Below, one piece after another: positions 2,889 to 10,338 of a stretch of 64,000 nt of DNA (within the stretch, counting starts at the first letter, position 1; each line of letters opens with the position of its first letter). The position numbers were made by a program, and so were the translations under genes. The notes under the pieces were generated by a model. The model saw only the letters and a program-made list of their open reading frames with translations, had not been told where the DNA came from and made no database searches. This stretch comes from Exobasidium rhododendri (lineage: Eukaryota > Basidiomycota > Exobasidiomycetes > Exobasidiales > Exobasidiaceae): positions 3,658,001 to 3,722,000 of the forward strand of contig CP110631.1 in assembly GCA_026210745.1 (NCBI GenBank), written 5' to 3'.

Positions 2889-2930
2889 CTTAATAACCCC
2901 CCATAGTTAATAGAAAAGGGCTGGTCCCGC
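2889..2930 (+). repeat. Right subterminal direct repeat
   Basis: Same-orientation copy of 1093-1134 (CTTAATAACCCCCC, GTTAAT, GGTCCC). It abuts the right terminal inverted repeat. Confidence 0.8.
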
Positions 2931-2957
2931 TTGTATTAGAACTGGGAGGTTCTACTG
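2931..2957 (-). repeat. Right terminal inverted repeat of the pogo-like element
   Basis: Reads ...GGGAGGTTCTACTG, the inverted partner of 1061-1087, followed by the TA duplication at 2958-2959. Confidence 0.93.
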
Positions 2958-3453
2958 TACTTTCTCTTATTCACACTATCTCACCTCGTATACATACATA
3001 CAAACGGATCTATTAGACTAACACACGCCTCCGATTTGTCCATCTGAGAGTCGAGCCGACGCCACGTGTCTTTTGAAGTCACGGCAACATCAGTAGGCCG
3101 GGCCTATTAAATGATTGAGCCTTATCTCTAACTTTCTTCCGAAATTTTTGACTTTTCTTCTCTCCCCCAATCTGACTCGACACCTTCAGCCCTCTTAGTA
3201 TAAGCGAGAATTGGTTGCACCACCTCGTCATAGGACAATTTAAGCATCCTACCACCCTCGCATGTTCCTTCAATCGACTCGAGACGACTACATCTCGTGA
3301 GTCTGCTTTGAAGGCAAACGACGTTGAAGGAGAGTCGAACGGCTCTATAGGGCTGACATTGCCTGCTATTCCGCCCACAGTGACGCCATTTTCAAATCTA
3401 GTGAAGCATAAAAGACTGCTCCTTTTAGACCTCTTGAAAACGTACAAATCATC
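2958..3453 (+). promoter_or_regulatory. CPA1 promoter remnant and 5' leader
   Basis: This 496-base stretch lies between the transposon end and the CPA1 start. TATTAAA at about 3105 is a weak TATA-like site. A six-codon ATG-start frame (3111-3131) sits next to it and is probably upstream of transcription. The spliced attenuator uORF (3262-3411) is the main feature, with an intron at 3297-3380. Because of the insertion, upstream elements of CPA1 may now lie beyond the 1.9 kb transposon. Confidence 0.6.
3262..3411 (+). CDS. Arginine attenuator peptide (AAP) uORF, 21 codons, spliced
   Basis: Exons are 3262-3296 and 3381-3411, with an 84-base intron (GTGAGT...CTGAC...CACAG). Spliced translation begins MFLQSTR and ends DDYISDAIFKSSEA. 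The tail aligns without gaps to the fungal arginine attenuator peptide (Neurospora arg-2 tail QDYLSDHLWRALNA, from memory). It keeps Asp-Tyr, Ser-Asp and the final Ala with the same number of residues to the stop. The Asp equivalent to the essential Asp12 is present; Trp is replaced by Phe. In the known family the nascent peptide stalls the terminating ribosome when arginine is high and lowers CPA1 translation. The uORF start has C at -3 (weak) while the CPA1 start has A at -3, as leaky scanning requires. The uORF stop is 42 bases before the CPA1 ATG. Alignment and splice sites are seen; regulation is inferred from the family. Confidence 0.85.
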
Positions 3454-4866
3454 ATGTTGACCTCTCTTGTTCGCCAATCTTTAAGGCTATCAGGAAGCCG
3501 GGGACTGGCATCGGCAGCCAGTAAGGCTCCGATCACATTCACCGATGCACCACCCACTCAACCAGCTACTTTGCATCTAAAGTCTGGTCACGCCTTTCAG
3601 GGAAAGTCATTTGGAGCACCGGTCTCCACTCGATTTGGAGAGACAGTCTTCACTACGGCCATCACCTCATACACAGAGTCTTTGACGGATCCTTCGTATC
3701 AAGGTCAACTTTTAACCTTCACCCAGCCCTTGATGGGAAATTACGGCGTGCCTGACAACTTTTCCGGTAGATCGCCAATGGAGCATCCTCTGGATGTCGA
3801 CGTCGGCTCATTCCTTGAGTCAAGAGGAGTGCAAGCATCTGGGGTGATTGTCAGTAACTTGGCAGAAAGATTCAGCCATTTTGAAGCAGTGGAGAGTCTC
3901 AGTACTTGGTGTGCTCGTCACAAGGTGCCAGGGATCTCTGGTATCGACACTCGAGCCCTTACCACCTTACTACGAAATCAGGGATCAACGCTGGGTGCCA
4001 TCAAGATTGGAGAGGGACACGAAACCCCTCCTGCTGCTGGCGATTTCATCGATCCCATGAGCGAGAATCTAATTGCTAAAGTCTCCACCAAGGAACCTTA
4101 TACGATTCACCCTGTCGGTGGAGCAAGCAAGGCCAAAGCTCATATTGCATTGCTCGACTTTGGATCAAAGGCTAACATTGTACGATGCTTGATTCGAGAA
4201 GGAGTCACTGTCACTGTCTTGCCATGGAACTACGACTTCAACTCGGTGCGAGATAATTTCGACGGACTCTTTTTGAGTAACGGTCCGGGCAGCCCTTACT
4301 CGATCCCTGAAGCGATAGAGACAACAAAGGAAGCCATGGCAACCTGGAATAGACCCATTTTTGGAATTTGCATGGGGAACCAGATCATTGGTCTGGCTGC
4401 CGGTCTAAAGGCGTACAGGATGAAGTTTGGCAATCGAGGTCACAATCAGCCAGTCATCTCACTCTTGGACAATGGGAAATCCGTCAAAGCAGGAAGAGTT
4501 TACATTACAAGTCAAAACCACGGGTACGCAATCGAGCACGATCAAGACGCTAAGACAGAAGCAGAAGGAAAGTGGCCCGACGAGTGGTTGCCTTGGTTTG
4601 TGAATGCAAATGACGGAACGATCGAGGGAATCATCAGCGCGCCAAATTCAGGTAAACATGTTCGAAGTGCTCAATTCCACCCTGAATCTCGGGGTGGGCC
4701 TGAGGACACTTTTGGAATGTTTAAAGATTTCATCGATGATGTCCTCACCCTGAAGAAGGAGAGAGGCATGAGAAGCGCTTCACCAGGTCTGGAAGCGGGT
4801 CTCTTAGGTCCTTCTCCCGTCGGTATGGCCCCTCCTGTCCCTCAATATGTAGCCACTGCTGCTTGA
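3454..4866 (+). CDS. CPA1: Carbamoyl-phosphate synthase, arginine-specific, small (glutaminase) subunit, 470 aa
   Basis: It hydrolyses glutamine and passes ammonia to the large subunit to make carbamoyl phosphate for arginine synthesis. Residues 1-25 (MLTSLVRQSLRLSGSRGLAS...) are basic, Ser-rich and acid-free, a likely mitochondrial transit peptide as in filamentous fungi. The CPSase small-chain N-terminal domain covers about 35-175 (FGETVFTT, YPS-like DPSYQGQLLTFTQPLMGNYG). The class I glutamine amidotransferase domain is at about 230-440. The nucleophile is Cys306 in FGICMGNQ (the usual His/Leu neighbours are changed, as in many CPSases), with His409 and Glu411 in QFHPES. There is a single exon. 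Length matches fungal CPA1/arg-2. Expression is probably controlled by the attenuator uORF in the leader. Separate from the pyrimidine pathway CPS, which is fused to ATCase in fungi. Confidence 0.97.
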   Translation: MLTSLVRQSLRLSGSRGLASAASKAPITFTDAPPTQPATLHLKSGHAFQGKSFGAPVSTRFGETVFTTAITSYTESLTDPSYQGQLLTFTQPLMGNYGVPDNFSGRSPMEHPLDVDVGSFLESRGVQASGVIVSNLAERFSHFEAVESLSTWCARHKVPGISGIDTRALTTLLRNQGSTLGAIKIGEGHETPPAAGDFIDPMSENLIAKVSTKEPYTIHPVGGASKAKAHIALLDFGSKANIVRCLIREGVTVTVLPWNYDFNSVRDNFDGLFLSNGPGSPYSIPEAIETTKEAMATWNRPIFGICMGNQIIGLAAGLKAYRMKFGNRGHNQPVISLLDNGKSVKAGRVYITSQNHGYAIEHDQDAKTEAEGKWPDEWLPWFVNANDGTIEGIISAPNSGKHVRSAQFHPESRGGPEDTFGMFKDFIDDVLTLKKERGMRSASPGLEAGLLGPSPVGMAPPVPQYVATAA

Positions 4867-5213
4867 CGCAGACAATCTATCATCTCGACTTATGTAGTTG
4901 CTAGTAATTACGATTTCCATTGCATCCCTCGAATAGAAGAACATCGTAGTGCTAATTGTAACGATTGCCTGAGAAAAAGAAATATTACCGAACGAAGCCT
5001 CTCTCTTATTGAAGGTGAAATCGCAGACAGGTTCCTTGCAATTGATCTCCACGTGCGCGGCCTTTTCCGGACGCCAATTGGTCAATCTGACGTGAAGCTG
5101 AATCGATCGGTGATGGGAGGACTAAGGCTTCCTTCTTTGTTAGTTTTGCCGTTCATAACGTAAGAAGGAACTTCATTCTTCCCTCATCACTCCAAAAGGA
5201 AGTCAGCCTCAAC
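4867..5213. other. Intergenic: CPA1 3' region and COX12 promoter
   Basis: No coding signal is seen. It should hold the CPA1 3' UTR and the COX12 promoter. CACGTG at about 5051 is a candidate E-box (inference). Confidence 0.5.
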
Positions 5214-6149
5214 ATGTCAGACTCAGACTCGGAAGGCGGCAGGTCGTTCACCTTGCAAAGTAAGTTTATTCTTGAGCTGTGGTTGGAAGCATATTTTCAG
5301 TGTAGTGAGGGATGTGAGACAGCCGGGTCTTCAGCGGCGAATCACAGCTTGCAAGAGACAGGTCCTTTACCTAGGGAAGATGGAGATGTGATCTCGGTGG
5401 GAATTTCGATGCTTACACTGTTCCTCTCGATCTCCTTTTTTTTTTGGCTTGTCTGTGCAGCTGCATCTTTTGATGCTCGATTCCCAAATCAGGTAAGTTC
5501 TACAGCACTGCCGCTCTTCATTTACCCTTCTTTCTACTAACGGTTTCCCTTACCTTGCCCCACTTTCAGAACCAAACCAAGCACTGGTATGTTCAATCCT
5601 CAAGGGCACGCCTTGTCGAGCCTGGAGCTTACACCATCTTCTTCACTATGTCTATTGCTTACTTCTTCCTCTTCGACATTTCCTAGCTGGCAAAAGTGAG
5701 TGGTGATTGCATGATCGCGACGGAAAATTTAGGATGCAGAGCATTTATTTATCTGGAAAAATCGTGCTGCCTTGCCTCACCTAATCTCTCACAGCTACGT
5801 TGACTACTACAAGTGCATCAACGCCAAGGGCGAGGAATTCACACCCTGCAAGCAGTTTTACCGAGCTTACCACTCACTGTGCCCTAGTGAGTCTATGGCA
5901 GGGTGGGACACTCCGCTCACTGGACTTATCACTGATTCATCATACTTTTTTCTTCTCCTTCCCTGCAGACGAATGGGTGCGTCTCAAACTGCATGAAAGG
6001 CGAATGGCAAAGGCTCTGAATTTGCACTGGCTAATGTAATTTCTCCTTCCCACCCACTTCTCTCCTCCATCTTTCTTCCTTCTTAACAGCTGGCAAAGTG
6101 GGACGAACAACGTGAAAACAGCAACTTTCCCCACTCGCTCGAGCCATGA
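5214..6149 (+). CDS. COX12: Cytochrome c oxidase subunit VIb (Cox12/COX6B), 87 aa, seven exons
   Basis: This intermembrane-space subunit of respiratory complex IV has a twin-Cys helical hairpin fold. Exons: 5214-5259, 5461-5492, 5570-5586, 5687-5695, 5795-5886, 5969-5976, 6090-6149 (264 nt, 88 codons with stop). All junctions are in phase with GT-AG ends. Spliced protein reads ...[25 protein letters not shown]...PCKQFYRAYHSLC-PNEW-LAKWDEQR... It shows the CX9C ([11 protein letters not shown]) and CX10C (CKQFYRAYHSLC) pairs of Cox6B and the WDEQR tail motif. Exon 4 is only 9 bases and exon 6 only 8; exon 3 is 17. The intron after the 8-base exon uses a GTGCGT donor. Import should run through Mia40 with no cleaved presequence. 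Family match and the phase check make this secure; cDNA would settle the micro-exons. Confidence 0.94.
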
Positions 6150-6418: not shown

Positions 6419-8554
6419 TCAAGTACTCTGCAGCGTTTTGATTTTTTCTTCGAGTGTCTCAATCGGCAGTTTGCTGAGGGCACCGGCAGAGGTCACTGTC
6501 GTCTTTGTTTTGCCAGGTCCGCCACTTAATGCTGAGCTGATGAGACCTTCTCCAAGGGCAGAGGAAGTGTTGGCGGTGTTTCCAGCACGAGATTTGATGA
6601 TTGTTTCACACAATTCTCCTGCGCGATGAGCTACAATAGATAGAAGACTGTCCGACAGACCATGCGTTTGCTCGTTTCCACCAAGGAAGAATACGGAAGG
6701 TTCAAACACTTTACCGTTGATCACTTGATGAAGGCCAGTCTCGCCCAACGTCTCACTGGAAGACAGAGGGGAGGAAGTGCCAGACCTCTCCGTGCTGCTT
6801 GCTCTGCTTGCAATTGGCTCCGGTCCCTTCGTATTGCAATGATCACCACTGTCCTTGGAATGAGTGAATGCTTCTGACCAGTAGTTGACCAGTCGATAGT
6901 CCCTTGCGATACCTCTGGTTCTCTGTCGAAGTCGTTCAACTGCAAATTCGTCGTTCGACTCCATCAGCTTATTGAGAGTAGCGTCCGTCTCGGCTTCATT
7001 CGCGAATCCCAACTCCGCTTTCTTCAATTCGCTTTCTTGATCCAGCAGTGGAAAGTACTGCTTGATTGGATCTAAAAACTTGATAGCATTGGGTTGCCTT
7101 TCGTAACCCGTGCCGACAAAGACGGCATCAAAGCTTTCCACTGTCTCCGCCTTCAGGTCCGTGGAAGAAGACAGCGTCAATTGGACCATCCCTTTCTCCA
7201 CATTCATCTCTACCTTCTCTACTACAGTGTTCGAAAGAAGCTTCAAGATGCCATGGGTGGGTGACCCATCTGCATTTGGCCAAGGTCGATCAAAGTCGAT
7301 GTTCTGATCATAAAGATCGGAATTGATCTGATTCAGGACATCAGATCTGACAACGGAATAGTTTGTTCTCCTGTACTCCTTCAACCAAGCTTTCCTCGAT
7401 TCTTCGTTCGCTTGCCAGAATACGTCTGTCCTACTTGGATCAAACGCTTTCGCATTGACAAAAGGCGAGTCGTCAGATGGCACCATGGCAGATGATCGAA
7501 AGATGACTTTGACTTGAGACTTGGGGAACGTCCTCCGAAGGTGCAACGAGATCTCGGCAGACGATTGACCACTACCGATCACTGCAAAGCGCAGAGGTGC
7601 CGGTTTGGATGCACATGGGTCGAGCGAATGGAGCGTGGCAGAGTCAGGCAAGGTGGCTAGCCTCTTGCTTTCCCTGTCGCGCAGCATTGGCTCGAGAACA
7701 GCGAGACTGGGCAGGTACGTGCTGGAATGCGCAATCTGCTCAATCTTGTCGGCACTATATGGGCGGTAGAGGTGGTGAAATGGAAGTGGTAGGCGAGGGA
7801 CACCACCGACTCCTACACTGACGTTCTTTGTCAGGCGGATCAAAAGGTGGCCAGTGGACAAGTCTCGAGTGGTGACACGTAGGTATCGAACATGACTTGA
7901 TGCGTCGATTTGTTTCGATGCCGCTTCTTCAGCTTCTACACTGACGACTTCTTGGTTGTAGGTGACGGTGTCGTCCATTCTCTCTGCTGCCCAAGTCAGG
8001 TAAGCAGACCACTCTCGTCGACTCGGTACGCTTGCTTCTCGATTGATGTAAGCGGCCAATCTACCCTTTTGATGCAGGTAGTTGAAAAACGTGTAGGAAG
8101 AAGTGGGATCTCTCATAGTGGCCAAGTCCTTCAAAGGTGATACCTGAAGCTGAGCGCCAGGTAGCAACAAGGTCGAGTGCCATGCAAAATGAGCCTGCTT
8201 CTCCACAAAGGTAAACTTCAATCCGCAATCTTGTGCTTCCTGCGACTCTCGAAAGGCGATGCTGAGCGCAAGATTCGCTGGACCAAATCCGATCCCGATG
8301 AAGTCATAAATGTCGTCATCGATCTTTAACAGCTCTGAAGTGGACGGAGCTGATGGTGAAGGCGGAGTCATGACGGAAGCTGGGGGCACAGGTGATTGCG
8401 AACGGGGTCCTTGGGAGCCAAAAGACATCTTTTGGCGGCGTATATTGTCACAGGGAGTAGTGGTGGGAGTAGTGATGGGAAGGGCCAAGTTTGCGTGGGG
8501 ATCGATTGCTACCAGGGGTCGCGATATAAAGGCAGGATGCTGATCAAATGACAC
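6419..8554 (-). CDS. sid1: L-ornithine N5-monooxygenase (SidA/Sid1 family), siderophore synthesis, 711 aa
   Basis: It hydroxylates L-ornithine at N5 with FAD, NADPH and O2, the committed step to hydroxamate siderophores such as ferrichrome. The FAD motif GIGFGPANLAL lies at residues 87-97. The substrate-region signature WHSTLLLPGAQLQVSPLKDLATMRDPTS-type stretch is at about 128-152. The NADPH motif AVIGSGQSSAEISLHL starts at about 325, and the C-terminal GxGxxR-like GTGYER and FFLGGNEQTHGLSDSLLS motifs are present. There is one exon. The protein is longer than Aspergillus SidA (about 500 aa) because of an N-terminal Pro/Ser-rich extension and a Ser-rich insert; Met43 is an alternative start. 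It is convergent with COX12 (269-base gap). The 1.8 kb upstream region carries GATA sites, suggesting control by an Urbs1-type iron regulator. Confidence 0.95.
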   Translation of the reverse strand: MSFDQHPAFISRPLVAIDPHANLALPITTPTTTPCDNIRRQKMSFGSQGPRSQSPVPPASVMTPPSPSAPSTSELLKIDDDIYDFIGIGFGPANLALSIAFRESQEAQDCGLKFTFVEKQAHFAWHSTLLLPGAQLQVSPLKDLATMRDPTSSYTFFNYLHQKGRLAAYINREASVPSRREWSAYLTWAAERMDDTVTYNQEVVSVEAEEAASKQIDASSHVRYLRVTTRDLSTGHLLIRLTKNVSVGVGGVPRLPLPFHHLYRPYSADKIEQIAHSSTYLPSLAVLEPMLRDRESKRLATLPDSATLHSLDPCASKPAPLRFAVIGSGQSSAEISLHLRRTFPKSQVKVIFRSSAMVPSDDSPFVNAKAFDPSRTDVFWQANEESRKAWLKEYRRTNYSVVRSDVLNQINSDLYDQNIDFDRPWPNADGSPTHGILKLLSNTVVEKVEMNVEKGMVQLTLSSSTDLKAETVESFDAVFVGTGYERQPNAIKFLDPIKQYFPLLDQESELKKAELGFANEAETDATLNKLMESNDEFAVERLRQRTRGIARDYRLVNYWSEAFTHSKDSGDHCNTKGPEPIASRASSTERSGTSSPLSSSETLGETGLHQVINGKVFEPSVFFLGGNEQTHGLSDSLLSIVAHRAGELCETIIKSRAGNTANTSSALGEGLISSALSGGPGKTKTTVTSAGALSKLPIETLEEKIKTLQST

Positions 8555-10338
8555 TGTGGAATGCGCCGAACTCGTAAGGTTTCCCTCCGCTTCAACGAGT
8601 GCCAGGCTGCTTGATTCGATGAAGGCTTTTTCCTCTTAGCGCCAAGGCGGTCTTGTAGGGCGAGATTGAAATCCCAAGATTGTCGCAACAATACTGTGAG
8701 AAGCTCCTTTCTCTCCTTTGCCTTTGATAAATAGAAAGAAGAATCGAAAAGGCTGAGAGACCAACAAAAAAAAAGAAGAGGAGAAAATGAATCTAAATGA
8801 AAGAAGAGCGCTTAACGTCAGCCTCCACCAAAATTCCGAATCTAAGTTTATCATCCTTCCAGATCCGAAAACTCTTTGCCAAAGCGGGATCCCGCCCCTT
8901 CTATTTCCCCCTCTCTCTCCGCCGTTTTGCTCTCCACTTTCTTTAAGCGTAGGCATTTCGCTAGCGAGAGCGGAGAAGGCCCTATAATTTGAAATACTAA
9001 GATCTCGGCCTTTAAACCCTTTGTGATGCCTCCTCCTTCCCTGAGATCTCTGCGTCAAAGCCCGATCTTTCAGAAGTATGATTCATAACGACAAATGTAC
9101 TCCCATGTCCCCTCACGTTTTCTACTTAATATCAAATGAGAAGACTTAATTCTCCGCGGTGGAAGAAGGAACTCCACTTTCGAATCCCACTAGAAGCAGT
9201 AGAAGCGGCATTACGTAGCTACAAAAGTAGAAATCGTCCAGTATAAAACTCACCTGTCACAAAAGCGCTGACGAGATTCTCCTACTGCCTTTCTCTTTCG
9301 TCTGCGTCGGGGAGATCTGACCCTGAGGAGGAAGACGGAGCCAATGAAAAGCTTCAGAAATGTAATCGAGAAGTTGTTTTTCTTATTTTCGATGCCAAGT
9401 TTGGGCCCGGCTTAGGAGTGAATTTGACTATCGGCCCACGTTGGCTCACAGTAACGGCCACTAGCAGGCAGAGAGGTGGTGGAGAGGGTGCGCTATCGGT
9501 AGAGGTGGCGAGCGACCTGCACGGTTGAGATGTCTTGATCTAACTCGCGGATAGGAAAATTGCGATGACCGGGGGTGACGTGGTAATAGATCACTTCTCT
9601 CTCTGTGCTGAGGTTCCCAGCTCGGGTCTGTGAGGGGAAGAAAGAAGCATACGGGTCAAGAAGAGACGCTCTCCTATATATGCGAGTCTGCTTTCGTGCC
9701 AAGCAAAACGTATGCAAATCAACAAAGGAAGAAGCTTCACCTTGCTTGATCGGGTGAACGATGGAAGAGACGCACAAGCTATAGCTGTCACGATACACTT
9801 TTGATTTGCGTTTTCAAAGCAGTCATATGCTGCAAATGTCAGACGGAAAAAGAACTAGTCGCTGCTGACGATGATCAGATAGAGAGGTAGAATCTGAAAT
9901 CCGAGAGGAGGCAGGCAATCAAGGGACGGCCGACACACACGCGCGCCGCATTTATTGCAAGAGGAGGAAGATTGTGCATTTCCACTAATCAGAACGATAA
10001 GATCGATCTGCGTCGATTTTCACGCTAGCACACCTGTCCACTGATCTTATCTACGCCGGCTGATCTCAGGCCTTCCGAGAGTTGATGATGGGATGGAAGC
10101 AGTGCAAGACGAACAGAAGACGCTGTCGATCGTGGGCGTTCTTCTAGTGAGTTTAAGAGGAGTCCAATCTGCAAGCCGTCGTGTAAGAAGCCTTGCATCT
10201 TTTATTCCCCGTTCTATCCTCTAGGGATTCGCCGAGGCGGGACTGCACAAGACACACCGCCTTGGAATCTCTTTATCTTTCTCTCCCGGGAAAGCAATCT
10301 ATTCGTGTACGTTATACAATGACTATCATTACTCCCTC
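8555..10338 (-). promoter_or_regulatory. 1.8 kb upstream region of the ornithine monooxygenase gene
   Basis: This is the longest gene-free stretch of the window. It holds no frame with family-like coding content on either strand. GATA-type sites: TGATAA at 8725-8730, TTATCA (TGATAA on minus) at 8848-8853, and a closely spaced pair CGATAAG (9995-10001) and CTTATCT (10046-10052, AGATAAG on minus), about 1.45-1.5 kb upstream of the start codon. In Ustilago maydis sid1, distal GATA sites about 1.6-2.3 kb upstream mediate iron repression by Urbs1 (recalled knowledge). The match in layout is suggestive only. Confidence 0.5.

Follow-up and report, generated by a model that had tools for sequence, protein, structure and literature searches.

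The locus examined here raises the question of whether the leader of a fungal CPA1 gene encodes an arginine attenuator peptide (AAP) whose upstream open reading frame (uORF) is divided by an intron. Positions given below are those of the window, the whole 64-kb stretch of DNA that was analyzed. A preliminary description had proposed an intron-split, divergent AAP uORF in the CPA1 leader, and this proposal is supported by the candidate peptide, its location, its distance to the stop codon, and the signals of the putative intron. Our best reading of the sequence, to which we assign a probability of about 70%, is that CPA1 carries an arginine-responsive ribosome-arrest uORF of the AAP type that is interrupted by an 84-nt spliceosomal intron.

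The main open reading frame (3454–4866, plus strand) encodes a 470-amino acid product in which a Pfam scan identified CPSase small-chain and glutamine amidotransferase domains (PF00117, 2.5e-42; PF00988, 4.4e-41). Among the matches listed, the best identity to this product is 93%. The nearest match that carries an organism name is the CPA1 of Acaromyces ingoldii (75%), ahead of those of other smut-lineage fungi; the position of Acaromyces ingoldii as the closest named source indicates that the host is a basidiomycete. The genome that was scanned (17.65 Mb in 4 contigs) contains a second match to CPA1 that is 48% identical and lies elsewhere, inside a 2,306-amino acid CAD-like frame. Another frame elsewhere in the genome, 1,191 amino acids in length, contains two CPSase_L_D2 matches and is probably CPA2. 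Because the CAD-like frame and the probable CPA2 are separate and located elsewhere, 3454–4866 most likely encodes the arginine-specific CPS small subunit, which is the AAP-bearing gene of other fungi. The N-terminus of the product looks, by eye, like a mitochondrial leader. The idea that AAP-like residues have become fused into CPA1 gene models was also considered and was rejected, as a DYISD-like motif was found within the first 140 residues of none of the 120 listed CPA1 relatives (the best 120 of 642 at E ≤ 1e-100). A scan of IMG/VR for relatives of CPA1 returned none.

The candidate uORF starts at an ATG at 3262, and we assume that the transcript begins 5′ of this position. Exon 1 (3262–3296, plus strand) extends from the ATG through the first two bases of the codon for Ser-12 (MFLQSTRDDYI plus TC). 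It is followed by a phase-2 intron of 84 nt (3297–3380, plus strand), predicted from sequence signals, that begins with GTGAGTCT and ends with GCCCACAG. Exon 2 (3381–3411, plus strand) supplies the remaining T, the residues DAIFKSSEA, and the TAA at 3409–3411 that constitutes the predicted stall site. Joining of the two exons gives 21 sense codons that specify the peptide MFLQSTRDDYISDAIFKSSEA. When the joined exons, the frame, the splice ends (GTGAGT...CACAG), the number of codons, and the position of the stop were derived anew, each agreed with the preliminary description. Retention of the intron leaves a frame of 12 codons from the same ATG (3262–3300, plus strand) that encodes MFLQSTRDDYIS and ends at a TGA (3298–3300) located within the 5′ splice site. 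The phase-2 intron interrupts the Ser codon and thereby divides the AAP core, which means that the whole arrest core is encoded by the spliced mRNA only. Scans for uORFs on unspliced DNA can overlook such a peptide because its core is interrupted and the frame without splicing stops in the 5′ splice site; reliance on the Pfam model alone can overlook it as well. The stop codon of the uORF is separated from the CPA1 AUG by 42 nt (45 nt if the stop codon itself is included). Exon 2 is in the reading frame of CPA1, and readthrough of the uORF stop would therefore yield an N-terminally extended CPA1.

The candidate resembles the AAPs of S. cerevisiae CPA1 and N. crassa arg-2 (PF08252, Leader_CPA1; PDB 2xl1) in its gene, in its location, and in the spacing of 13 residues between the essential Asp and the stop, which all three peptides share. 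BLASTP aligned the candidate with yeast AAP without gaps and with 10 of 16 residues identical (E of 4e-6 for a single comparison). Together with scoring anchored at the stop, this alignment bears out the earlier statement that the peptide aligns gap-free with AAP and has the same length to the stop. An alignment of the candidate with yeast and N. crassa AAP by MAFFT revealed that M, T, D, Y, S, and D are invariant and that overall identity is 57% to yeast AAP and 33% to N. crassa AAP; from the Asp onward, only 5 of 13 residues equal those of the N. crassa peptide as judged by eye. The essential Asp (residue 12 in N. crassa, residue 13 in yeast) and the Tyr, Ser, and Asp that follow it are all kept, and the yeast core T..DYISD.I.K is common to the candidate. 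The candidate differs from the yeast and N. crassa peptides in its shorter N-terminus, in the 84-nt intron inside the core, and in the replacement of His 17 and Trp 19 of the N. crassa core by Ala and Phe, respectively. The preliminary description had listed changes of Trp to Phe and of His-Leu to Ala-Ile. The first of these stands, whereas the second holds in part; the pair in yeast is His-Ile, so the core departs from both references only where Ala replaces His and Phe replaces Trp. The core Trp is important to AAP, and its replacement by Ala at position 19 of the N. crassa peptide, studied by Spevak and colleagues in 2010, reportedly abolishes regulation. We know of no test of Phe at this position. 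The conserved Asp of yeast AAP, which the candidate keeps, is shown in PMC7969011 to be required for the arginine response.

With HMMER filters on, the Pfam model Leader_CPA1 (PF08252; curated cut-off of 18.5 bits) gave no match to the candidate peptide at E ≤ 10; the same model scores 58.8 bits on yeast AAP and 56 bits on N. crassa AAP. A phmmer search of PDB with the candidate peptide as query returned nothing, and a query with yeast AAP recovers N. crassa AAP (2xl1). When PF08252 was run against all six frames of the genome, with exons not joined, a single match (L003; G000:C2:4989365-4989406) was obtained, which scored 13.6 bits with an E value of 1.48. This match falls below the cut-off and is probably due to chance.

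The uORF AUG has C at –3. Its context ranks at the 15th percentile when set against the presumed starts of 54 long ORFs and at the 31st percentile when set against every ATG in the 264 kb of sampled DNA. The AUG of CPA1 has A at –3, and the corresponding percentiles are the 59th and the 83rd. Thus, the context of the uORF AUG is weaker than that of CPA1, yet it is not specially weak. The start of the yeast CPA1 uORF is described as inefficient in PMC7969011. Another ATG, located at 3111, opens a frame of 6 codons, and its context ranks last in a comparison of four starts. It lies within a stretch that appears TATA-like by eye and is therefore probably upstream of transcription. The leader region also contains the sequence TGACTCG at 3173–3179, which we take to resemble a Gcn4/CPC1 half-site.

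The neighboring COX6B gene (5214–6149; Pfam PF02297, 1.2e-23) contains seven exons, and its six introns served as the yardstick for splice sites. The uORF intron has canonical signals at both splice sites and at the branch site, and its length is usual for this genome, as the COX6B introns range from 77 to 201 nt. The fifth COX6B intron is identical to the uORF intron over its first 8 nt. The branch-point-like CTGAC of the uORF intron is found at 3353–3357 (plus strand) and places the branch A at 3356, 24 nt 5′ of the intron end; CTRAY occurs 10–55 nt from the 3′ end in four of the six COX6B introns, and the other two are without any in their last 70 nt. In a noisy splice model, the best donor in 2951–3453 is the GTGAGT at 3297, and the acceptor at 3380 scores second to one at 3313 that is too near the donor. 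A first set of introns called de novo (37 clusters) was likewise noisy and visibly included false introns. In 65 de novo introns, CTRAY is positioned 8–60 nt from the end in 23, compared with a frequency of 14.7% before any AG; these introns were picked by donor motif, which means that their donors carry no evidential weight.

Other explanations of the locus were weighed against an arginine-responsive AAP uORF. The most probable of these, which we nonetheless consider unlikely, holds that the peptide is an AAP homologue by descent whose response to arginine has been lost, its core Trp and His having been replaced, and that the frame is now either in decay or limited to the role of a weak constitutive uORF. 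The Ala and Phe at the core positions and the lack of a Pfam match for the peptide speak for such a loss. However, the Asp, Tyr, Ser, and Asp residues and the spacing to the stop are retained, the intron signals are good, the uORF AUG is still weaker than that of CPA1, and Phe preserves an aromatic residue at the position of Trp.

An improbable explanation is that splicing itself gates the attenuator. Retention of the intron would yield the 12-codon product, from which the latter half of the core is missing and which would not stall, and regulated splicing would set the share of mRNA that responds to arginine. The division of the core by the intron and the TGA that ends the retained frame within the 5′ splice site are in keeping with this idea, as is the score in a two-sequence local HMM (see below), which falls from 16.4 bits for the spliced peptide to 7.1 bits for the unspliced one. 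Against it, the 5′ splice site is strong, and the RNA of the intron folds no better than shuffled sequences (z of –0.15; 80 of 200 shuffles as good); a scan of 2900–5000 with Rfam found no family at gathering score. Moreover, truncation does not necessarily abolish the activity of an AAP, as PMC13183943 describes premature termination arrest when the AAP stop is shifted toward the N-terminus. Structured RNA in the leader or intron, considered as a feature in its own right, was rejected because of the shuffle-like fold and the lack of an Rfam family. It is similarly doubtful that the leader forms a two-input attenuator in which splicing chooses between a stalling AAP and a 12-codon non-stalling uORF, arginine acts on the spliced form only, and the Phe/Ala core still senses it.

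The resemblance to AAP was compared with that of other peptides encoded in the same genome. Peptides of 14–40 amino acids that start with ATG, either unspliced or with one GTRNGT...[ACT]AG intron of 45–150 nt, were collected from both strands of the 64-kb window and 20 further 10-kb stretches (264 kb in all). The resulting set of 5,251 peptides, including the candidate, comprised 2,935 unspliced and 2,316 spliced entries that are not independent owing to shared ATGs. Each peptide was scored with BLOSUM62 over 14 residues anchored at the stop against two known AAPs, a small reference set that was entered before scoring. The candidate ranked first with a score of 38, compared with 23 for the runner-up and a mean of –11.7 (sd 7.4), and contained 8 identities to the known AAPs, compared with 5 or fewer in all others. 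The two-sequence local HMM, built from these two AAPs, also placed the candidate first (16.4 bits, E of 0.0014) among 5,227 distinct peptides. The margin is less overwhelming than with BLOSUM62, since the HMM runner-up (L023) reached 12.6 bits; it was rejected as a second AAP-like peptide, for it matches at LSNSVFT in the N-terminal part only and the core is absent. The resemblance of the candidate to known AAPs exceeds chance. Application of the same rules to 2941–3457 allows 4 peptides, all of them spliced and all starting at the ATG at 3262. That the likeness is fortuitous and that the leader carries a mere 12-codon uORF is exceedingly improbable: the peptide is just 21 residues long, has no Pfam match, and leads by a modest margin in the HMM, but its lead in the BLOSUM62 comparison and the small number of peptides possible in this leader argue against a chance likeness.

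For the preferred reading of an arginine-responsive AAP uORF split by an intron, we infer a course of events that runs from splicing through translation and arginine-dependent stalling to mRNA decay. After removal of the intron, some scanning ribosomes would begin at 3262, where the AUG is weak, and read through the 21 codons. Under ample arginine, the emerging peptide, whose core is TRDDYISDAIF, would work from within the exit tunnel to hold the ribosome at the TAA at 3409–3411; arginine-dependent arrest at this site is expected because of the homology to AAP. The held ribosome would block scanning to the downstream AUG of CPA1 and would probably expose the mRNA to nonsense-mediated decay. 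When arginine is scarce, ribosomes would leak past the uORF or terminate normally, which would allow CPA1 to be made.

An AAP-type uORF on a basidiomycete CPA1 is already in print. PMC7049704, citing Hood et al. 2007, describes such a uORF with strong ribosome occupancy in CPA1 of Cryptococcus, where the uORF is translated and the main ORF is repressed; the candidate is very probably a divergent AAP. The uORF of TgApiAT1 in Toxoplasma is characterized in PMC8370653 as arginine-responsive, peptide-dependent, AAP-like, and in need of a conserved Asp. The candidate shares the resemblance to AAP and contains a counterpart of this Asp. The TgApiAT1 uORF differs in that it belongs to a transporter gene of an apicomplexan, and convergent evolution is raised by its authors (PMC8370653). 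The points of interest in the present locus are the predicted split of an AAP between exons and the core in which Trp is replaced by Phe and His by Ala. If the peptide stalls ribosomes, it would provide a natural test of the residues needed for arginine sensing in a lineage distant from yeast and Neurospora. Intron-bearing AAP genes may have been discussed before.

Two further elements flank this part of the window. A DNA transposon at 1058–2960 is bounded by 28-nt terminal inverted repeats (93%) and encodes a transposase on the minus strand (2826–1267; DDE_1, 2e-45; HTH_Tnp_Tc5, 1.4e-10). The transposon ends approximately 300 nt 5′ of the uORF and is thus near the CPA1 promoter. Past COX6B on the CPA1 side, a 738-amino acid open frame on the minus strand (6419–8635) can be assigned to PF13434 (3.4e-88), the family of L-lysine/L-ornithine monooxygenases found in siderophore synthesis; CPA1 is a gene of the arginine/ornithine pathway.
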